From positions 1 to 31,322 of IMG/VR virus record IMGVR_UViG_3300017710_000032: DNA of 31,322 nucleotides. One strand, 5' to 3'. This DNA comes from a virus. The notes under the pieces are model-generated. The model searched no databases. It had not been told where the DNA came from and worked only from the letters and a program-made list of their open reading frames with translations. Each line of letters opens with the position of its first letter. Within the stretch, counting starts at the first letter, position 1. This document shows positions 2,017-14,814 of this stretch, one piece after another. The position numbers were made by a program, and so were the translations under genes.

Positions 2017-2295
2017 AGCTAAAAAATTTTGCAGTAAAAATTTTTAGTAGGAGTCCCTTTCCGCGTCATACTCAGTATTTTATAGTGACTGACCTAAAAG
2101 TAAAGTTTATAGTAAATGGCTCCTCTGATTATTGACGCAGGCGTTACGCTATGCATATCTGCTATAAAGGGGGGTGGGGGGTGGCACAGCGGACTACTGG
2201 AGGACTGTTGATCTGTGACAGCTGTTACGTCTGTTATAGCTGTGCGTCTGTCTTTTCTGCGTCTGTCTGTCTGTCTGTTTTGTCTTAGTTTGTAT

Positions 2296-2327
2296 CCGCC
2301 GAAGGCGGCAGATCTCGCCGTAGGCGA
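2296..2327. repeat. Two GC-rich triloop hairpins (CCGCC-GAA-GGCGG; TCGCC-GTA-GGCGA)
   Basis: Two adjacent perfect 5-bp inverted repeats with 3-nt loops, at 2296-2308 and 2315-2327. Both belong to the same family as three longer hairpins at 3044-3152, all built around CGCC-(GAA/GTA/GTCA)-GGCG. The C(GAA)G closure is the one known to give unusually stable DNA mini-hairpins. Confidence 0.7.
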
Positions 2328-2329
2328 CG

Positions 2330-2419
2330 GTCGTAACCGCTCGGGTTACGGGCGTAGTAAGTACTTACTAACCTAAAGTAAGTACTTACTTACGTATAAA
2401 AGTCGTAACCGCTCGGGTT
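2330..2419. repeat. 18-bp direct repeat with hairpin potential
   Basis: The 18-mer GTCGTAACCGCTCGGGTT occurs at 2330-2347 and 2402-2419. The first copy continues into a perfect 7-bp stem (CGTAACC/GGTTACG around GCTCG, 2332-2350); the second keeps only the inner AACC/GGTT pairing. The copies flank the two palindromes at 2355-2391, giving a symmetric array. Confidence 0.7.
2355..2391. repeat. Pair of 16-bp perfect palindromes around AGTAAGTACTTACT
   Basis: The perfect palindrome AGTAAGTACTTACT occurs twice (2356-2369 and 2377-2390), each extended by one matching base pair on each side, with 5 nt between the two 16-mers. Paired palindromes of this size in a non-coding region suggest binding sites for a dimeric protein or an origin-type iteron pair; function is inferred only. 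Confidence 0.7.
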
Positions 2420-2555
2420 TAAAGGGCGTTAAAATTAGTACGTTTATTTTAGTATATAACGGTTATAAGCCTTTATATTTAGTATAATTACCTTAGTTAT
2501 TAAATAAAGGGCGTTTTTTAACTACTTTTTTAACTAGCCCTAAAGGTAAAATAAT

Positions 2556-2870
2556 ATGACTAAAACTAATACTAAAAAAGCTACTACTAGCGTTACTACT
2601 AACGTTACTAGTAATACGGTTATTACTAAAGATAATATAGGTACTATTAACCCTATATTAACTTTTAATAATAAAGGGCGTTTAGCTAACGCTAATAGTA
2701 AAAGGGCTAATAGCGTTAACGGTAAAACCTATAAAGACGCGTTAGCGTTTTACGGTAGCGTTAAAGCGTTAAACCCTAATAACCCTAAGTTAAAACCGTT
2801 AAGGGCTTTAACTTACGATATATTTAAAGTTAAAAGCCTAAGCGTACCTAAAGGCTATACGCTAGGCTAA
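2556..2870 (+). CDS. Small Lys/Thr-rich phage protein, paralogue family, unusual composition (104 aa)
   Basis: One of only two supported longer genes on the plus strand. AAAGG lies 9 nt before the ATG and a strong terminator follows, so it is a single-gene unit. The N-terminus is rich in Thr, Asn and Lys (MTKTNTKKATTSV). The C-terminal half matches two other small proteins here: SVNGKTYKDALAFY, then LTYDIFKVKSL. No Cys, His, Gln, Trp or Glu and no internal Met occur, because the DNA contains no CA and only one TG. That composition differs sharply from its neighbours. Function unknown; an abundant nucleic-acid-binding protein is one guess. Confidence 0.7.
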   Translation: MTKTNTKKATTSVTTNVTSNTVITKDNIGTINPILTFNNKGRLANANSKRANSVNGKTYKDALAFYGSVKALNPNNPKLKPLRALTYDIFKVKSLSVPKGYTLG

Positions 2871-2881
2871 TAACCTAACCT

Positions 2882-2910
2882 AAAGGGCTAGTTTAACTAG
2901 CCCTTTTTTT
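2882..2910 (+). terminator. Rho-independent terminator after the 2556-2870 gene
   Basis: Perfect 7-bp stem GGGCTAG (2885-2891) / CTAGCCC (2897-2903) with loop TTTAA and a following run of seven T. Three A before the stem pair with the T-run, so it could work in both directions. Confidence 0.85.
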
Positions 2911-3002
2911 ACGCCTAAAATAAATTTTAAGATTTTAATCATATATACAGGGATCGTGATCCTAGGGCGACTGACCTGCTTCCTGGAATCTGGGCTTCCC
3001 GA

Positions 3003-3039
3003 GATCTGTGAGGTCCTTGCTTCCTGGGATCTGTGAGGT
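3003..3039. repeat. 12-bp direct repeat GATCTGTGAGGT
   Basis: Identical copies at 3003-3014 and 3028-3039. They lie in a longer stretch of related units (2975-3125) containing GCTTCCTGG, GGCTCCTGG and GTTCCTGG, so the segment looks built from degenerate tandem pieces. No gene is seen here. Confidence 0.6.
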
Positions 3040-3043
3040 GTGT

Positions 3044-3152
3044 CCGTCGCCGTAGGCGACGGCTCCTGGATCTTGGTGCGTCGCCGTCAGGCGACGCTCC
3101 TGGTTCCTGGTGTCTGGTTCCTGTCTTCTGTTGTCGTCGCCGAAGGCGACGA
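3044..3152. repeat. Three GC-rich hairpins of the CGCC-loop-GGCG family
   Basis: Perfect 8-bp stems: CCGTCGCC/GGCGACGG with loop GTA (3044-3062), GCGTCGCC/GGCGACGC with loop GTCA (3078-3097), and TCGTCGCC/GGCGACGA with loop GAA (3134-3152). The cores match the two hairpins at 2296-2327, while the outer base pairs change on both arms together, as in REP-like palindromic elements. Confidence 0.75.
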
Positions 3153-3166
3153 TCGCGATCGCGATC
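3151..3166. repeat. 16-bp palindrome with three GATC sites
   Basis: GATCGCGATCGCGATC is a perfect palindrome carrying three GATC sites. It contains the octamer GCGATCGC, which is the cyanobacterial HIP1 element, but a single copy says nothing about the host. Confidence 0.6.
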
Positions 3167-3176
3167 TAATGGTCAG

Positions 3177-3206
3177 GAATAAAAAGAGGGGAGCCGAAGC
3201 TCCCCT
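3177..3206 (-). terminator. Rho-independent terminator of the 3212-3436 gene
   Basis: On the minus strand an 8-bp stem AGGGGAGC/GCTCCCCT closes a stable TTCG tetraloop and is followed by a T-rich tract (TTTTTATT). It begins a few bases past the stop codon of the leftward gene. Confidence 0.9.
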
Positions 3207-3211
3207 GACCG

Positions 3212-3436
3212 TCAGCCTAGCTTTAAGGACTTGATTTTATTCAAGTCGTATTTTAAAGCTCGCTCCTTTAAGCCGAGCGTCTTATAGTGCTCTATAGCCT
3301 GTTCGTAGGTCATACCTTGAACGGCTTTAGCTCGTTTGACGTTGTGCTCGGCGCGAGCTTTATTAGGGACGTAGGTCAACGTTTGAGCGTTGACTTTAGG
3401 AGCTACGGATTTAGTAGCCTTTTTAGTATTAGTCAT
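3212..3436 (-). CDS. Small Lys-rich phage protein, paralogue family (74 aa)
   Basis: A 74-aa basic protein starting MTNTKKATKSVAPKVN. The second half (RAKAVQGMTYEQAIEHY, then LKYDLNKIKSL) matches the proteins at 2556-2870 and 9600-9872, and more weakly the C-terminus of 14263-14814. AGGAGG is 5 nt before the ATG. It has its own promoter (3466-3494) and its own terminator (3177-3206), so it is an isolated single-gene unit convergent with its paralogue at 2556-2870. Base composition is ordinary, unlike that paralogue. Function unknown. Confidence 0.8.
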   Translation of the reverse strand: MTNTKKATKSVAPKVNAQTLTYVPNKARAEHNVKRAKAVQGMTYEQAIEHYKTLGLKERALKYDLNKIKSLKLG

Positions 3437-4687: not shown

Positions 4688-4716
4688 ATAATAGCCCTGA
4701 TCCCTATGATGGTTAA
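4688..4716 (-). promoter_or_regulatory. GATC-spacer promoter of the 4649-3917 operon
   Basis: Minus strand: -35 TTAACC, 17-nt spacer with GATC at positions 9-12, -10 TATTAT. The extended block CTTAACCATCATA is shared with the promoters at 6748 and 7582, and nearly with 8358. The sequence upstream of the -35 (TGAACTAGC) contains the stop codon of the dehydrogenase gene. Confidence 0.75.
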
Positions 4717-4722
4717 GCTAGT

Positions 4723-5556
4723 TCAGGTATGATAGTTAATATTATTACGACGCTCTCTTTCGTCAGGAGCGTACAACCGTCGGTACTTATTATTGATACG
4801 GTCCACGAACCTTAGTAAACTGAACTTTTTCTTACTAAAGTGAAACAAAGCATTCACGTCCTTAGGAAGACACGCACCACCGTACCCTCTTTTACGCCCA
4901 CCGTCACCTACCTTAGTATGACCCTCACCTATACGCTTATCACTAGTTACGGTATCTACTATTATTTGATAGTCGGCACCACAGCGATTAGCTAAGTCAT
5001 ACAGTTGATTAAAGAAGGTAACTTTGGTCGCTAGAAAAGCATTTGTTGCGTATTTAACTAGGCTCGCTTCTTGTTTAGTCATAACGACAAAGTCTTTATG
5101 TCGTAAGTTTGACTGCTCACGGTAGAGTTTCATAACTCCACTACAGGCTGCAGGTTCTCCACCCAGTATATGATATTCAGCGTTAATAAAATCTTCCTCA
5201 GCGTTAGCTTCCGTTAAGAACTCAGGGTTATAAACCACTCTAGAACTAGTGGGTATTAGACCAGGAGTAACGGTTGACTTAATAATAACGATGGCATCAG
5301 TATTACGCAGTATATCGTCTGTACATTTTTGTACGATACGTGCGTCTATTTCACCAGAGTCAAGCGAAGGAGTGGGTACACATACGAATACGAAATCAAT
5401 AAACGCATCAGATGCACGGTTTTTATCATAGAGTAGGCTAATGTCGTTGCCTAGTATGGGGTCCACGGACCAAACTCTACCTCTATAGGGATGGAAAGCA
5501 TTTGCCACTGCCTGCCCAACAAAGCCAAAACCTAATATGCCGATGTTATAACTCAT
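4723..5556 (-). CDS. UDP-glucose/GDP-mannose dehydrogenase-like protein (277 aa, short)
   Basis: Rossmann-fold nucleotide-sugar dehydrogenase, normally oxidising UDP-sugars to uronic acids with two NAD+. Seen: N-terminal dinucleotide motif GILGFGFVGQA, FVCVPTP, KSTVTPG, the substrate-loop motif NPEFLTEANA near residue 133, a central helical region, and the catalytic-Cys motif GYGGACLPKDV near residue 227. The protein ends shortly after this motif, so the C-terminal UDP-sugar-binding domain of the roughly 400-residue bacterial enzymes is missing. It starts in an ATGA overlap with the gene upstream. In a phage with a glycosyltransferase (20534-21331) it could help supply a sugar donor; that link is inference. 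Confidence 0.85.
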   Translation of the reverse strand: MSYNIGILGFGFVGQAVANAFHPYRGRVWSVDPILGNDISLLYDKNRASDAFIDFVFVCVPTPSLDSGEIDARIVQKCTDDILRNTDAIVIIKSTVTPGLIPTSSRVVYNPEFLTEANAEEDFINAEYHILGGEPAACSGVMKLYREQSNLRHKDFVVMTKQEASLVKYATNAFLATKVTFFNQLYDLANRCGADYQIIVDTVTSDKRIGEGHTKVGDGGRKRGYGGACLPKDVNALFHFSKKKFSLLRFVDRINNKYRRLYAPDERERRNNINYHT

Positions 5557-5726
5557 TTTTTATCCATCATTTCAAATAGTGTTATTAATTCTCCCATATA
5601 TTTTGCAACTGCTTTTGTAGAGATGCCTGACAGAGTTAGCCCATGCTCATCACAAAACTCTTTTAATTGTTTATGTGTGTCTGCTGCGATATATATACAT
5701 TTATATTTTTCTTCTTCATTATACAT
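5553..5726 (-). CDS. Small hypothetical protein (57 aa)
   Basis: A 57-codon gene with AGGAG 7 nt before the ATG at 5726. It overlaps the dehydrogenase start by 4 nt (ATGA). The sequence (YIAADTHKQLKEFCDEHGLT, then a helix with KAVAKYMGEL) has a beta-strand then two-helix pattern reminiscent of ribbon-helix-helix DNA-binding proteins, which is only a suggestion. Its tight coupling to the dehydrogenase indicates joint expression. Confidence 0.7.
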   Translation of the reverse strand: MYNEEEKYKCIYIAADTHKQLKEFCDEHGLTLSGISTKAVAKYMGELITLFEMMDKK

Positions 5727-5740
5727 TTTTTTCTCCTATG

Positions 5741-6247
5741 TTATTGGTCTAAAATAAAGTCTAAATTACTCTTACCTTCATGAAGGTTAAAGAAAGGTAG
5801 CCCTAGTCTGTCTGAAATAAAGTCAAGTGCATTACCTACACCACCACTAGTGGGGTCAACTATTTCATGAACCGCAAAACCACTACAGGTTTGATAATAC
5901 TCATGATCAAGTAACGCATACACAACTCCGTCTTCCCATAAATCAAAGTGCTCACCAAAAAGTTCAAGGGCTAATTCTTTACTCAGTAGCTTACGGTGTT
6001 CAGCAGTAAGTTCAATAGCTAGGCTGGCACCAGTTTCCTCGCCATACTGGGCATATATTAAAGGTATGTCACCTTTAAAGGCTCCAGGTTCGCCACTAGC
6101 CTCAAACTTTATTAAATTTTCTTCATCAACACATAAGTCTTGAGGACGTATACTACAATATTGAAGTAAGTAAAATTCATTGTGGTGTTTATTAATAGCT
6201 TCAACCACAGGCTGAGCGTACTTAACATATGTTTTAAAATTATTCAT
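5741..6247 (-). CDS. Hypothetical protein under a putative structured leader (168 aa)
   Basis: A 168-aa acidic soluble protein, start ATG at 6247 with AGGAG 7 nt upstream. Features visible: N-terminal helix (MNNFKTYVKYAQPVVEAINK), a Glu-rich middle, and a Gly-rich SGGVGNALDF near residue 136. I recognise no family. A structured RNA element (6267-6333) lies 19 nt upstream of the start. The same element precedes the MazG-like gene at 8383-8712, so the two genes may respond to the same signal. Confidence 0.75.
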   Translation of the reverse strand: MNNFKTYVKYAQPVVEAINKHHNEFYLLQYCSIRPQDLCVDEENLIKFEASGEPGAFKGDIPLIYAQYGEETGASLAIELTAEHRKLLSKELALELFGEHFDLWEDGVVYALLDHEYYQTCSGFAVHEIVDPTSGGVGNALDFISDRLGLPFFNLHEGKSNLDFILDQ

Positions 6248-6266: not shown

Positions 6267-6333
6267 GTGGTTCGTTTGCGAGCACAAGTGAACCACGCTT
6301 GCTAATATAGAGGACTAATTAAACCTCTTGCTC
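6267..6333 (-). ncRNA. Putative cis-regulatory pseudoknot RNA, copy 1
   Basis: Read on the minus strand, four helices can form: P1 GAGCA/TGCTC (6329-6333 with 6280-6284), P2 AGAGG/CCTCT, P3 CAAG/CTTG (6298-6301 with 6285-6288), and P4 GTGGTTC/GAACCAC (6290-6296 with 6267-6273), where P4 pairs the P3 loop with sequence beyond P1, a pseudoknot. Copy 2 at 8741-8805 keeps the block GGYTCACTTGTGCTC and the AAACGA segment, while P4 changes GGTTC/GAACC to GGCTC/GAGCC, a compensatory change. It lies just upstream of a start codon; riboswitch-like control is inferred. Confidence 0.6.
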
Positions 6334-6371
6334 TAAACTAGCCTCGTTAGTATGGAGGACAGAGAGACTAG

Positions 6372-6719
6372 TCATTTGACTACTAATTCAAGCATACCGT
6401 CAACGACATTGTCAACCCATAAACTTGAGTTATCATATTCCGTAAATACGTCAAATAAGTCGCCATGTTTACCGTCTACATAAGTTAAGTAGTGGTGAAT
6501 GACGTAGTTAAACTCACCATGGGAACAGCTATATATCACTAACCCACCTGTGCTTAACTCTACTTCCGCGTCAGTATTGACTTGATGAGCTTTTAGGTCT
6601 TCACGCCAGTTATCAACGGTAACTTCAATATCGGTATCAATACTCATACCTTTAACGAAGTCTTCACACGTATCATAGGAAATATAAGTAACACCTTTTC
6701 TTAGACTTTTTCTATTCAT
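6372..6719 (-). CDS. Hypothetical protein (115 aa)
   Basis: Acidic 115-aa protein beginning MNRKSLRKGVTYISYDTCED with Asp/Val-rich beta-type stretches and a His-containing segment (GEFNYVIHHYLTYVDG). No recognised family. GGAG lies 8 nt before the ATG and a GATC-type promoter (6748-6776) sits directly upstream, so this gene starts a transcription unit that includes the structured leader at 6267-6333 and the genes to 4723. Confidence 0.7.
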   Translation of the reverse strand: MNRKSLRKGVTYISYDTCEDFVKGMSIDTDIEVTVDNWREDLKAHQVNTDAEVELSTGGLVIYSCSHGEFNYVIHHYLTYVDGKHGDLFDVFTEYDNSSLWVDNVVDGMLELVVK

Positions 6720-6747
6720 AGTTTTACTCCTTATTTACTATAGGTTT

Positions 6748-6776
6748 ATAATAGCTACGATCTATATGATGGTTAA
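6748..6776 (-). promoter_or_regulatory. GATC-spacer promoter of the 6719 gene
   Basis: Minus strand: -35 TTAACC, 17-nt spacer with GATC at positions 9-12, -10 TATTAT; CTTAACCATCATA is identical to the promoter at 4688. Confidence 0.75.
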
Positions 6777-6798
6777 GTAATATCATAAATTATTTTAA

Positions 6799-6871
6799 AG
6801 CCGTTAGACCGTTTGATGTATAGGGGTAAGGGGTAGGTAGCCCTAAGTAAATCATAGCCTTAAAACGCGTC
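6799..6871. repeat. Dispersed intergenic repeat, copy 1
   Basis: Shares with 13930-14003 an identical 15-mer GCCTTAAAACGCGTC (6857-6871) and a similar block (AGCC, TTAGA, CGTTTGAT) about 40-50 nt away in the same order. Both copies lie between the end of one leftward gene and the start of the next. Confidence 0.6.
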
Positions 6872-6886
6872 CTATAGCGTCCTATT

Positions 6887-7099
6887 TTAGGCATCATACC
6901 GTAGCCCTATAGGTAATAAACAATATAATTCAATATAAGGAGTTTGTTCCTCAACTCCTGAATGGCTTGAATGTACTTCAAACCTAGAAGTTTCATAATC
7001 CATCGATTTATCGTTTTCTAACTCATATGGGACGAGTATATCAACTCGTGCCTCAGGGTTTATCGTTTCAAGCTGTTTTATTAATTCTGCAACTGTCAT
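6887..7099 (-). CDS. Hypothetical phage protein (70 aa)
   Basis: Begins MTVAELIKQLETINPEARV, the pattern of a widespread small phage protein with an N-terminal helix followed by a strand (VDILV). No catalytic motif. It is separated by only 2 nt from the preceding zinc-ribbon gene and probably shares its transcript from the promoter at 7582-7610. Confidence 0.7.
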   Translation of the reverse strand: MTVAELIKQLETINPEARVDILVPYELENDKSMDYETSRFEVHSSHSGVEEQTPYIELYCLLPIGLRYDA

Positions 7100-7101
7100 A
7101 A

Positions 7102-7299
7102 CTACCTCCCAATAGTTTCAAGATCATTTTCTGTAATGTATTGATAAGCTCCTTTATTGTACACAGGAGCCACCTGCTGTTTACGAGTATTAGCGAGTGT
7201 TTGAGCCTCTTTTTCACCACAGGTTAAACAAGTAAAATAGCCGAGAGCATAACGCTCCCGACTAATATTAAGTTCACCACAGTTTTTACACTCAACCAC
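7102..7299 (-). CDS. Zinc-ribbon small protein (65 aa)
   Basis: Two CxxC knuckles, CKNCGEL at residue 4 and CLTCGEKEA at residue 24, make a single four-Cys zinc-binding module, followed by a polar tail. The start is GTG overlapping the TAG of the gene upstream. Small zinc ribbons of this kind in phages often act in transcription or as DksA-like factors, but no specific role can be read from this one. Confidence 0.75.
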   Translation of the reverse strand: MVECKNCGELNISRERYALGYFTCLTCGEKEAQTLANTRKQQVAPVYNKGAYQYITENDLETIGR

Positions 7300-7541
7300 T
7301 AGCGACCCATTTTATATTGAAATAACGTAGGGGCATTCTCAAATTCTTCCAGTAACTCTGGAGTATAATCCCTTTCGTTTATTACGTGCTTAGAATTAAG
7401 CCTAGTGACATAAGCACCATCGTAAAAATGAGCACCATTTCTACTATATTTAAGTGCCTGAGCAGTATGAAAATACATACCGTCTTCCTTACGAGTCATA
7501 AATAAATTATCCTCGATTTGTTTAGTTACACTACTTACCAT
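7299..7541 (-). CDS. Hypothetical protein (80 aa)
   Basis: 80-aa polar protein beginning MVSSVTKQIEDNLFMTRKED with aromatic-rich segments (YFHTAQALKYSRNGAHFYDG). No family recognised. AGGAGG is 5 nt before the ATG, and a degenerate member of the repeated promoter family lies 40-70 nt upstream, so this is the first gene of a unit with 7102-7299 and 6887-7099. Confidence 0.7.
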   Translation of the reverse strand: MVSSVTKQIEDNLFMTRKEDGMYFHTAQALKYSRNGAHFYDGAYVTRLNSKHVINERDYTPELLEEFENAPTLFQYKMGR

Positions 7542-7581
7542 AACATCCTCCTATAATTAATTGTTTAGTTAAGTAGCTTTT

Positions 7582-7610
7582 AATATAGCTTTGATGTATA
7601 TGATGGTTAA
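7582..7610 (-). promoter_or_regulatory. Promoter of the 7541 gene, degenerate GATC-family member
   Basis: Minus strand: -35 TTAACC, 17-nt spacer, -10 TATATT. CTTAACCATCATA and the upstream TGAACT are conserved, but the spacer has CATC where the other promoters have GATC. Confidence 0.65.
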
Positions 7611-7630
7611 GTAAGTTCAGTAAAAAGATT

Positions 7631-7834
7631 TTAGTAAAGATCTGCATGACCACCTTGCATCGTAAGGTCATACACTTGTGTAATAAACTCGGTATCTACA
7701 AACTCACGTTTAGATAACTCACGTGCGACAGCAACAGTAGCGATAGCTTGACTTTTAGTTAAATGAGGTTTATTAGAAATGATAAGTTCTAAATCACACT
7801 GAACGTCTAACATTAAATCTTTAAGTTTACTCAT
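7631..7834 (-). CDS. Hypothetical protein (67 aa)
   Basis: Mostly helical 67-aa protein beginning MSKLKDLMLDVQCDLEL, an N-terminus shared with the gene at 3917-4135. The start overlaps the stop of 7831-8007 by 4 nt (ATGA). Its 3' end lies just upstream of the promoter at 7582-7610. Function unknown. Confidence 0.7.
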   Translation of the reverse strand: MSKLKDLMLDVQCDLELIISNKPHLTKSQAIATVAVARELSKREFVDTEFITQVYDLTMQGGHADLY

Positions 7835-8007
7835 CGAATGTTTTCCTTTCTTTTATCTAAAACTGATTGATAGCCGTCTAGGTATTCATTGTTATACGGT
7901 CCATAAAAGTCAGAAGCATTTTTACGCTCCCTGCCGTTAGTGGCATCTTCAACGCCATGATTATAAGCATTTTCTGCTTGTTGTTTATGACTTAGTTTAC
8001 TATACAT
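7831..8007 (-). CDS. Small hypothetical protein (58 aa)
   Basis: A 58-codon gene with an excellent ribosome site (GAGGAG, 5 nt spacing) before the ATG at 8007, and an ATGA overlap with the next gene. The sequence contains AYNHGVEDATNGRER and EYLDGYQ, a pattern seen in small phage and bacterial proteins that combine an AY-GxxDA helix with a C-terminal GY motif. No function is known to me. Confidence 0.75.
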   Translation of the reverse strand: MYSKLSHKQQAENAYNHGVEDATNGRERKNASDFYGPYNNEYLDGYQSVLDKRKENIR

Positions 8008-8016
8008 AATATCTCC

Positions 8017-8325
8017 TCAACTTTTATTAACTTTATCAATAAATTCATTAACAACTTTATCAACATAAAAAGGTTTATAATCTTCATTAGTTTTAAGATT
8101 CATAAAGTCTTCTTTACTAGCTGAGTCAATACAGTTAGAACACAGCACGGTTTCACGTGTATCTTCAAACTCACTACAGCTAAGTTCCACGAGCCACGTA
8201 TCAAGTGGCATAGAACGGTGTCGTTTAACACCGCTTACTTGTTTTTCACCTAATTGTTGACAGCCGTCACAATAGTCGGTAAACCTGCGTTTAGGTAACA
8301 TGTTTATAATAGGGTTATCGCTCAT
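8017..8325 (-). CDS. CxxC-containing hypothetical protein (102 aa)
   Basis: Two paired cysteines, CDGC near residue 19 and CSNC near residue 63, suggest a zinc-binding domain. The upstream in-frame TTG at 8337 is rejected as start because GGAG overlaps it and is correctly spaced (6 nt) for the ATG at 8325 (MSDNPIINML). It is first in a unit behind the promoter at 8358-8386 and is followed by 7831-8007 and 7631-7834. Confidence 0.75.
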   Translation of the reverse strand: MSDNPIINMLPKRRFTDYCDGCQQLGEKQVSGVKRHRSMPLDTWLVELSCSEFEDTRETVLCSNCIDSASKEDFMNLKTNEDYKPFYVDKVVNEFIDKVNKS

Positions 8326-8357
8326 AATATTCTCCAAATATTTATTTAACTACATAT

Positions 8358-8386
8358 ATAGTAAACGCGATCAATACGATGGTTAA
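8358..8386 (-). promoter_or_regulatory. GATC-spacer promoter of the 8325 gene
   Basis: Minus strand: -35 TTAACC, 17-nt spacer with GATC at positions 9-12, -10 TACTAT. The -35 hexamer overlaps the TAA stop of the MazG-like gene. Confidence 0.75.
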
Positions 8387-8712
8387 GGTAGTTCAGGTAC
8401 ATCACTATTCTTTTTAAACAGCCCATCTTCAAGTACTCCCTTACGGTTTTTGATTTCATCGTACGCTTGGTCAATACACTCTGTTACTTTTAAATCTAAC
8501 TGCTCAGCTAATACCACTAAGCAAACAAATACATCACCTATACCGTCAGAGGTAGACCACTTGTCTCGGTAAGCAACACCCTTAGCAAGTTCACCTACTT
8601 CCTCAACTAGTTTAAGCATTTGTTTTTCAGGCTGAACGTCAGCGGTCAAAAGTCCACGTTGCCTAGCCCATATTACTATTAATTCTTCTAGTGAATTTAA
8701 ATCTCTAGCCAT
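8383..8712 (-). CDS. MazG-like nucleotide pyrophosphohydrolase (109 aa)
   Basis: All-alpha NTP pyrophosphohydrolase of the MazG type, which hydrolyses (d)NTPs to monophosphates and PPi. Seen: the metal-binding helix KLVEEVGELAKG near residue 33, and the second acidic motif DGIGDVFVCLVVLAEQ near residue 56, the two parts of the family's four-helix core. Length fits a single-domain phage enzyme. AGGAG precedes the ATG at 8712. The leader contains the second copy of the putative pseudoknot RNA (8741-8805), so expression may be controlled after transcription starts. Phage MazG-like enzymes are proposed to adjust nucleotide pools or alarmones; the substrate here is unknown. Confidence 0.85.
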   Translation of the reverse strand: MARDLNSLEELIVIWARQRGLLTADVQPEKQMLKLVEEVGELAKGVAYRDKWSTSDGIGDVFVCLVVLAEQLDLKVTECIDQAYDEIKNRKGVLEDGLFKKNSDVPELP

Positions 8713-8740
8713 TATATACTCCTATGTTGTTTAAATATAA

Positions 8741-8805
8741 GGCTCGTTTCTGAGCACAAGTGAGCCAAACTTGCTATGAAGGGACAATAATACAACACCC
8801 TGCTC
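8741..8805 (-). ncRNA. Putative cis-regulatory pseudoknot RNA, copy 2
   Basis: Same architecture as 6267-6333: P1 GAGCA/TGCTC (8801-8805 with 8752-8756), a short variable P2, P3 CAAG/CTTG (8770-8773 with 8757-8760), and pseudoknot P4 GGCTC/GAGCC (8762-8766 with 8741-8745). Relative to copy 1 the middle P4 pair has changed on both strands (T-A to C-G), whereas unpaired AAACGA and the 10-mer ACTTGTGCTC stay identical. It lies 28 nt upstream of the MazG-like start codon. Confidence 0.6.
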
Positions 8806-8868: not shown

Positions 8869-8913
8869 TATGTTGACGCACATTATAAAGGAGGTAAAGG
8901 ATACGTCAACATA
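8869..8913. repeat. 10-bp perfect inverted repeat across a gene end
   Basis: TATGTTGACG (8869-8878) and CGTCAACATA (8904-8913) with a 25-nt loop. It spans the stop codon of the 8906-9115 gene. No T-run follows, so a simple terminator is unlikely; RNA stability or a protein site are alternatives. Confidence 0.55.
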
Positions 8914-9599: not shown

Positions 9600-9872
9600 C
9601 TAAGCGATCTCAAGAGTTTTGACTTTTTCAATGTCATATCTGATACCACTCATGGTATACAACCCAGTAGCTATAGCTTCTTTGATTGTTTTACCACTGA
9701 CAGCTTTTACACGCTCATTATTGTGCTCGGCTGTTACTCGTTTCCCAGTCGCTTTTAATTTAGCGTCTGGGCTATATTTACCGAATTTAACTTTCGGCGT
9801 TGTTGTAGCAGTTTCAGTTTGAGTCTTAGCACTGCTTAGCATTGACTTTTTGGTAGCTGTTTTATTAGCCAT
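9600..9872 (-). CDS. Small Lys/Thr-rich phage protein, paralogue family (90 aa)
   Basis: The N-terminus is Lys/Thr/Ala-rich (MANKTATKKSMLSSAKT). The C-terminal half (RVKAVSGKTIKEAIATG, then IRYDIEKVKTLEIA) aligns with the proteins at 3212-3436 and 2556-2870 and with the last 40 residues of 14263-14814. AGGAG is well placed before the ATG. It has its own GATC-type promoter (9913-9941) and terminator (9543-9588), the same isolated single-gene arrangement as 3212-3436. Function unknown; high independent expression of a basic protein would fit DNA or RNA binding. Confidence 0.8.
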   Translation of the reverse strand: MANKTATKKSMLSSAKTQTETATTTPKVKFGKYSPDAKLKATGKRVTAEHNNERVKAVSGKTIKEAIATGLYTMSGIRYDIEKVKTLEIA

Positions 9873-14024: not shown

Positions 14025-14279
14025 TCATTTATAAAAAGGTACGCCTTTAATACGCAAACATTTAAACCGTGAAACTCTTTTATTCCTTATAGTTTTGATG
14101 ATAGCGGAAGCTATTTTATCCCGATTATCTTCTACCCATTGATAAAAATCAGGAGATTTTGAAATACTGTTATTTGTATCGACCTCTATTAAAAGTCGAG
14201 CAGGTGTGCCTTCAACTTCTTTAGGGTTATGGTAAACCATTTCCCAAAGTAATTCGTAACGACTAGCCTTTCGTGACAT
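14025..14279 (-). CDS. Hypothetical protein (84 aa)
   Basis: Basic 84-aa protein beginning MSRKASRYELLWEMVYHNP, with a helical segment (YQWVEDNRDKIASAIIKTI) and an Arg/Lys-rich end. No recognised family. The start overlaps the previous gene by 17 nt, with TTAGG just upstream. Confidence 0.65.
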   Translation of the reverse strand: MSRKASRYELLWEMVYHNPKEVEGTPARLLIEVDTNNSISKSPDFYQWVEDNRDKIASAIIKTIRNKRVSRFKCLRIKGVPFYK

Positions 14280-14814
14280 AACCTAACTTAATATCATATT
14301 TGATAGCACGTATATCAAGAACACCTTTATCAAGTACGTCTTGAATAGTTTTAATATTCTCGTATTGTTTCATACGTTCAATATTTTTAGAAGCCATAGG
14401 CATCTTATTGGTACGAGTAAGTTTTTGACTTGTGTCGTAAGGGTCGCGAGCACTTATAACTTTACACAGTGGGTCTGGTTTAGGTTTGCTACGGTCAACT
14501 TTAAAAACTTTGCTTCTACTCATATCTCTCTCCTCTGGCTTGACAGCCATTTTACTAAAAAGATTCCAAAGTTTAATTTGACAATCTTTTTTATTTTTAA
14601 AATTCTTGAGTTTACGTTTAGCAAATTTATTGTAAACTTCAAGAGCTTTTGATTCTGGTATAATTGTATTTTGATGTGACATAAAAGCAGGATCACCAAT
14701 ACGTTGATAACCTTTAACAATAGTATGTAGTTCTGCCATATCAACTTTCACCACCCTTGAATAATCAGGGGTGGTGAAACATAAAAACTCTATAGAGTTA
14801 TGCTGCTTCCGCAT
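14263..14814 (-). CDS. Basic protein with C-terminal module of the Lys-rich paralogue family (183 aa)
   Basis: Basic, probably nucleic-acid-binding protein. The last 45 residues (NIERMKQYENIKTIQDVLDK, then IRAIKYDIKLGYV) align with the C-terminal halves of the small proteins at 2556-2870, 3212-3436 and 9600-9872. The middle is Lys-rich (KFAKRKLKNFKNKKD). Start uncertain: the ATG at 14814 overlaps DUF932 by 17 nt but has a poor ribosome site. An internal ATG at 14739 lies 6 nt after an 11-bp hairpin and would give 158 residues. Confidence 0.7.
   Translation of the reverse strand: MRKQHNSIEFLCFTTPDYSRVVKVDMAELHTIVKGYQRIGDPAFMSHQNTIIPESKALEVYNKFAKRKLKNFKNKKDCQIKLWNLFSKMAVKPEERDMSRSKVFKVDRSKPKPDPLCKVISARDPYDTSQKLTRTNKMPMASKNIERMKQYENIKTIQDVLDKGVLDIRAIKYDIKLGYVTKG
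14746..14779. repeat. 11-bp perfect inverted repeat near a gene start
   Basis: TTTCACCACCC (14746-14756) and GGGTGGTGAAA (14769-14779) with a 12-nt loop. It lies inside the first 25 codons of the longest form of the 14263-14814 gene and 6 nt before its internal ATG. No T-run follows, so translational control is more likely than termination. Confidence 0.65.

Follow-up and report, generated by a model that had tools for sequence, protein, structure and literature searches.

A covarying pseudoknotted RNA at operon boundaries of mostly marine tailed phages

Two copies of a pseudoknot element in a viral record

The viral record IMGVR_UViG_3300017710_000032 (IMG/VR, positions 1 to 31,322; hereafter the window, meaning the whole 31,322-nt stretch analyzed) carries two copies of a pseudoknotted RNA element on its minus strand. 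Copy A (8741-8805, minus strand) lies 5′ of a gene (8383-8712, minus strand) for a MazG-like nucleoside triphosphate pyrophosphohydrolase (PF03819, E = 7.6e-6), with a gap of 28 nt to the start codon. Copy B (6269-6333, minus strand) lies ~20 nt ahead of the start codon of a 168-aa gene with no assigned function (5741-6247, minus strand), whose protein gave no Pfam, PHROG or isolate-phage match. The copy B operon also includes a UDP-glucose-dehydrogenase-like gene (4723-5556, minus strand), and on the other side the stop codon of a 115-aa gene (6372-6719, minus strand) adjoins the unit formed by copy B and its companion hairpin, described below.

Four helices, all on the minus strand, were assigned to each copy. 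For copy A these are P1 (8801-8805/8752-8756), P2 (8798-8800/8781-8783), P3 (8770-8773/8757-8760) and the pseudoknot helix P4 (8762-8766/8741-8745), with a linker at 8746-8751; for copy B they are P1 (6329-6333/6280-6284), P2 (6324-6328/6309-6313), P3 (6298-6301/6285-6288) and P4 (6290-6294/6269-6273). The first-pass annotation of this DNA had described two minus-strand copies ahead of start codons, and its sequences, coordinates and distances agreed with ours. So did its account of the helices: P1 (GAGCA/TGCTC) and P3 (CAAG/CTTG) are identical in the two copies, P4 shows a base-pair switch (GGCTC/GAGCC in copy A, GGTTC/GAACC in copy B), and P2 differs in sequence yet still pairs (AGAGG/CCTCT in copy B; GGG/CCC plus a contested A-U in copy A). 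A repeat search of the window recovered copies A and B as one 65-nt family with 71% identity, and the core pattern AGCAAG-N(2-10)-CACTTGTGCTC occurred exactly twice in the window and not at all in 100 shuffles.

Homologues and covariation

Homologues were collected by pattern scans of IMG/VR and by two protein-neighbour scans. A search for homologues with covariation, which the first-pass annotation had proposed as a check, yielded 28 copies on 21 viral contigs (window included), with one or two per phage in records of up to 62 kb and with paired changes in P1, P2 and P4; tandem pairs were found in L105 and L056. A covariance model, R1, was built from seven seeds, with both window copies left out and P4 not modelled. 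It matched copy A at E = 7.5e-14 and copy B at E = 4e-12, and, at 6e-6, it also matched a diverged copy in L046, a contig fetched only via a protein related to the 168-aa one. Aligned by hand, the L046 copy keeps P1 as GTCGG/CCGAC and P4 as GGTGC/GCACC. One copy, in L028, has a damaged P4 3′ arm near the contig end, possibly an assembly artefact.

Among the 20 distinct rows of the alignment, standard pairs filled 98.0% of cells, compared with 88.1 ± 0.9 in shuffled controls, and change on both sides was seen in 10 of the 18 pairs (4.0 ± 0.9 shuffled). The number of cells with both-sided change was 33 (9.5 ± 2.1 shuffled) and fell to at most 3 when the partner arms were slid to other registers, which destroyed the covariation signal. 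When all 3,240 column pairs were ranked by pairing and both-sided change, P4 pair 3 came first (C-G, U-A, A-U) and P1 pair 3 second (G-C, C-G), with two P2 pairs completing the best four. As P4 was absent from the aligning model, its first rank is an independent confirmation. The window copies have this knotted fold in common with no fewer than 20 further viral sequences. It is almost certainly real, and on this comparative evidence all four helices, P1 to P4, are under selection.

Two other explanations of the conserved region were rejected. Open frames cross the L056 and L105 elements, but a coding explanation fails because linker and P2 lengths vary by non-multiples of three, so that the frames break. 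The reading of the knot as a promoter was discarded because the helix arms change in pairs. A further candidate copy in L046 (3631-3718) was likewise rejected, since it scored only E = 0.1, lies on the strand opposite to the genes and has lost P3.

Architecture of the fold

The element is a three-way junction of P1 (4-5 bp), P2 (3-7 bp, with a variable loop) and P3 (4 bp), in which the 9-nt P3 loop pairs 3′ of P1 to give P4; J2/3 measures 6-7 nt. The P3 loop (L3) is exactly 9 nt in all aligned copies and comprises 3 nt, the 5-nt P4 5′ arm and one invariant A. P3 runs into the P1 3′ arm without a gap (one extra nt in L046), and the linker from P1 to the P4 3′ arm is 5-8 nt and mostly AC-ended. 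The invariant unpaired positions are the A between P4 and P3 and a T immediately 5′ of P4; the linker AC and the purine preceding P3 are nearly invariant, and other unpaired bases are little conserved.

Nested folding of single sequences, which admits no pseudoknots, yielded either P1 and P3 or a P4 hairpin, so that a two-state switch alternating between these forms must be reckoned with as a structural alternative, one that would fit several of the functions weighed below. The P4 hairpin can be extended by an inner UUGU/RCAA helix in many copies, although L056 copy 1 lacks this helix and in copy A it is weak. The exact 9-nt loop and its constant connectors (3 nt and 1 nt) are needed by a coaxial pseudoknot and not by alternation, and because they are fixed we infer that P1/P3 and P4 coexist. 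The H-type geometry of P3/P4, with a 3-nt loop over a 5-bp P4, would make simultaneous formation of P1, P3 and P4 sterically ordinary. We consider a two-state switch unlikely.

Anti-Shine-Dalgarno companion loops

Upstream of copy A lies a companion hairpin, H0 (8869-8913, minus strand), with a 13-bp stem (TATGTTGACGTAT/GTGCGTCAACATA) and a loop (CCTTTACCTCCTTTATAAT) that presents the anti-Shine-Dalgarno (anti-SD) sequence ACCTCCTT (CCTCC at 8890-8894); none of 300 shuffles gave a hairpin as good. It overlaps a promoter-like TTGACG-16-TATAAT (8882-8909), and a good site of this kind precedes only copy A and its close relatives. The H0 of copy B (6336-6373, minus strand; stem GACTAGTCTC/GAGGCTAGTT, loop TCTGTCCTCCATACTAAC, CCTCC at 6354-6358) overlaps the stop codon of the 115-aa gene that lies upstream; 3 of 300 shuffles produced an equally good hairpin. 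Hairpins with CCUCC loops were found 5′ of the element for both window copies and in L056, L057, L060 (second copy) and L061/L062. The stems of these six H0 hairpins, 7-13 bp long, are unrelated to one another, and each hairpin was equalled in 0-6 of 300 shuffles. CUCC also occurs inside the P2 loop, at element positions 11-13, in L056, L102, L111, L105, L046 and L061.

With the motif chosen post hoc, CCTCC was present in 8 of 11 leader units compared with 8 of 206 upstream regions taken as controls from the same contigs (binomial p ~8e-10), and CTCC in 9 of 11 compared with 41 of 206. The statistical association is large, and the motif is functionally meaningful; it is the best functional clue available, pointing to a ribosome-binding site (RBS). 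CCUCC-loop hairpins are commoner than the pseudoknot (window 8869-8913 and 6336-6373; also L058, L059 and L066, ahead of MazG). The MazG copies have AGGAGG 25-40 nt upstream, which could pair with the CCUCC loop; in L058, L059 and L066 it may also serve as RBS for a small open frame of 35-36 aa that spans the hairpins.

Genomic context

All copies are intergenic and in sense (coding-strand) orientation. The distance from the upstream stop codon to the element is often 9-13 nt, or is spanned by one hairpin, and that from the element to the next start ranges from ~8 to >600 nt. MazG lies 3′ of the element in the window and in L056, L057, L060 and L061-L063, and the 168-aa gene does so in the window, L002, L005 and L006. 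In L004 the element is directly 5′ of an orthologue of the UDP-glucose-dehydrogenase-like gene; in L105 it is followed by a helix-turn-helix-like small gene and then a serine-recombinase-like gene; and in L102, L111, L113 and L127 it precedes operons with an integrase-like gene (assigned by inspecting translations). The genes downstream in L080 and of the second copy in L060 have no assigned function. From these positions and the comparison above, the element is a cis-encoded structured RNA family of (mostly marine) tailed phages, occupying the gap after the stop codon of a small operon and before the operon that follows.

Three close MazG relatives (L058, L059 and L066; 84-88% identity) gave no significant element match (best E = 0.3). 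Ahead of MazG they have an anti-SD hairpin and a second simple hairpin instead of the knot, which is thus neither required for MazG nor bound to it. In L046 a different repeated leader (5890-5970 and 6553-6640; TAGCAYTATGCTAGGTGATC within a G/C-rich stem) stands ahead of the 168-aa homologue and the next gene, in the place occupied by the pseudoknot in the window.

The window DNA polymerase is 49-55% identical to those of seawater phage 023Pt_psg01, lake phage DSL-LC04 and pelagiphages HTVC023P and HTVC027P, a kinship that makes a marine proteobacterial host likely. No copy of the element was found in these four isolates, the nearest by DNA polymerase. A pattern scan of bacterial genome contigs returned 21 matches and no credible bacterial or prophage copy; the best by model (L184, E = 0.004, pattern-selected) cannot form P4 and the others were weaker, so all were treated as chance.

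Four other mini-operons of the window are preceded by a second repeated leader (4688-4716, 6748-6776, 7582-7610 and 8358-8386, minus strand), in which TTAACC and TATTAT/TATATT/TACTAT stand 17 nt apart and the spacer (CCATCATA..GATC) is conserved. This leader resembles a family of promoters that include an operator, and it is absent from the knot-bearing operons. A 57-aa protein of the copy B operon (5553-5726, minus strand) has a weak match to an Arc-like repressor (PHROG 3180, E = 0.003) and is a possible regulator of this promoter family. Elsewhere, small Lys/Thr-rich proteins (2556-2870, plus strand; 3212-3436 and 9600-9872, minus strand; and the C terminus of 14263-14814, minus strand) form a family with an apparent common C-terminal motif, ending like 'YDi.Kv..l', and a relative lies 3′ of the element in L046. 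At ~2020-3210, long stretches are non-coding and contain GC-rich repeats, both inverted and direct (GTCCGTCGCCGTAGGCGACGG...), in contrast to the rest of the genome, which is AT-rich.

Candidate functions

Our tentative preference, held at somewhat less than even confidence, is for a boundary element that regulates operons post-transcriptionally: its anti-SD loop would engage an RBS close by, and the knot would fold, shield or position that loop. After transcription the compact knot would fold and hold the CCUCC/CUCC loop available for pairing with a GGAG-type RBS close to the boundary. The usual target would be the RBS of the following gene, and in some phages an AGGAGG at the 3′ end of the preceding gene could serve as well. 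Such pairing would lower or time translation of the next mini-operon, and the candidate triggers are RNA processing, a protein of phage or host, and ribosomes that occupy the upstream gene.

Several observations weigh against this proposal. L046 has no same-strand gene within 600 nt downstream of the element, and the next gene is 100-330 nt off in L061, L080 and L060 (second copy), so that occlusion of a downstream RBS is not the whole story. Among the leader units examined, L127 and L080 are without any CUCC. The complementarity between loop and SD is just 4-5 bp and cannot be tested by covariation because SDs are invariant, and the anti-SD motif was picked after the sequences had been seen.

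Three other functions are each doubtful. An operator for a phage or host protein (a translational repressor or antitermination factor), perhaps common to several operons, would account for one element being shared by different genes; the few conserved unpaired bases fit recognition by shape, and the separate promoter element of the knot-free mini-operons is what a small regulon would show. No candidate protein can be named, however, an analysis of shared genes having been outside this study, and the anti-SD loops would go unexplained. Those loops, placed in hairpins as they are, would be the active part of a trans-acting small RNA cut from the intergenic region, with the pseudoknot as stabilizer and the SDs of other mRNAs as targets. 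Anti-SD loops are known from alphaproteobacterial small RNAs, and the unit is in most cases linked with the stop codon upstream of it and not with a downstream gene. Promoters and terminators around the element are not conserved, though, most copies are immediately ahead of an RBS and start codon, and two leader units have no loop. We give it a similarly small chance.

The knot might instead halt 5′-3′ decay by RNase J, or mark processed 5′ ends, so that the downstream mRNA survives. The helix order, [P1 [P2] [P3 loop = pseudoknot 5′ arm]] pseudoknot 3′ arm, equals that of the class 1 flaviviral exoribonuclease-resistant RNA (xrRNA), the element precedes genes at varying distance, and the tandem copies in L105 and L056 recall those of flaviviruses. 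One flaviviral xrRNA has been found to halt RNase J1, a bacterial enzyme, in vitro (PMC5760640). Against this, the element lacks the conserved 5′ flank that threads the ring in xrRNAs, no Rfam model matches, the L046 copy has no gene to protect, and the anti-SD loops are again left over, all of which makes a nuclease stop unlikely. Less probable still is the specific scenario in which a DNA phage would have independently evolved an xrRNA-like knot, single or tandem, that stops 5′-3′ decay at operon boundaries and protects the mRNA of the next genes.

A metabolite riboswitch is improbable: a compact pseudoknot in 5′ leaders, sometimes in tandem as some riboswitches are, would suit one, but the downstream genes (MazG, the 168-aa gene, the UDP-glucose-dehydrogenase-like gene and the integrase operons) are unrelated and share no pathway, spacing to an expression platform is not constant, there is no highly conserved unpaired core and few unpaired positions are invariant, no Rfam class matches, and the close MazG relatives do without the knot. 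Nothing found here points to a ligand. The first-pass annotation's pseudoknotted RNA ahead of two separate operons, which it likened to no known riboswitch class and which matches no Rfam family here, is thus retained as a conserved structure, and its common, perhaps nucleotide-related metabolite is not.

Comparison with known RNAs

We rate the element as a new RNA family, outside Rfam. The Rfam 15 covariance models gave no match at the gathering threshold for the window copies or the homologues tested, and none near the gathering score; at E ≤ 10 nothing credible fell on the element. A literature search for this motif, with most subscription papers outside its reach, found nothing. The nearest known kinds are manA and wcaG (RF01745, RF01761), structured RNAs of marine phages found in 5′ untranslated regions of varied genes (PMC2864571). 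They are likewise phage-borne marine motifs; they were described from T4-like phages of cyanobacteria, unlike the present element, and their models gave no match at E ≤ 10 in the focal stretches.

The glutamine riboswitches glnA and Downstream-peptide (RF01739, RF01704) are also small marine RNA motifs, with three-way-junction and pseudoknot features and sometimes in tandem. The phage element differs in having no match to their models, no link to nitrogen genes and no glnA core sequence. Alphaproteobacterial anti-SD small RNAs of the CcsR/cuckoo type form hairpins with CCUCC in the loop, and a loop complementary to the SD is present in 9 of the 11 leader units here; the phage element is by contrast intergenic, and each unit has a single loop coupled to a pseudoknot. 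Reading one phage sequence has in this way led to a strongly covarying structured RNA family in which a pseudoknot is joined to a built-in copy of the ribosomal anti-SD. If translation control is its role, it would be a compact, portable switch of phage mini-operons.

The fold has the topology of the class 1 flaviviral xrRNA, also viral and found in tandem, in which hairpin loop L3 of a P1/P2/P3 three-way junction pairs just 3′ of P1. In class 1 xrRNA a conserved 5′ flank base-pairs with the junction and the 5′ end is thereby threaded through a ring, whereas the bases 5′ of P1 vary freely here; this feature was tested and found absent, and the element was therefore not filed as an xrRNA. It further differs in its short P1 and P3, its anti-SD loops, its lack of an Rfam match and its origin in DNA phages, where it is intergenic and mostly 5′ of genes. 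Should the nuclease block nevertheless prove true, the element would be an xrRNA-like fold in a bacteriophage, the first of which we know.

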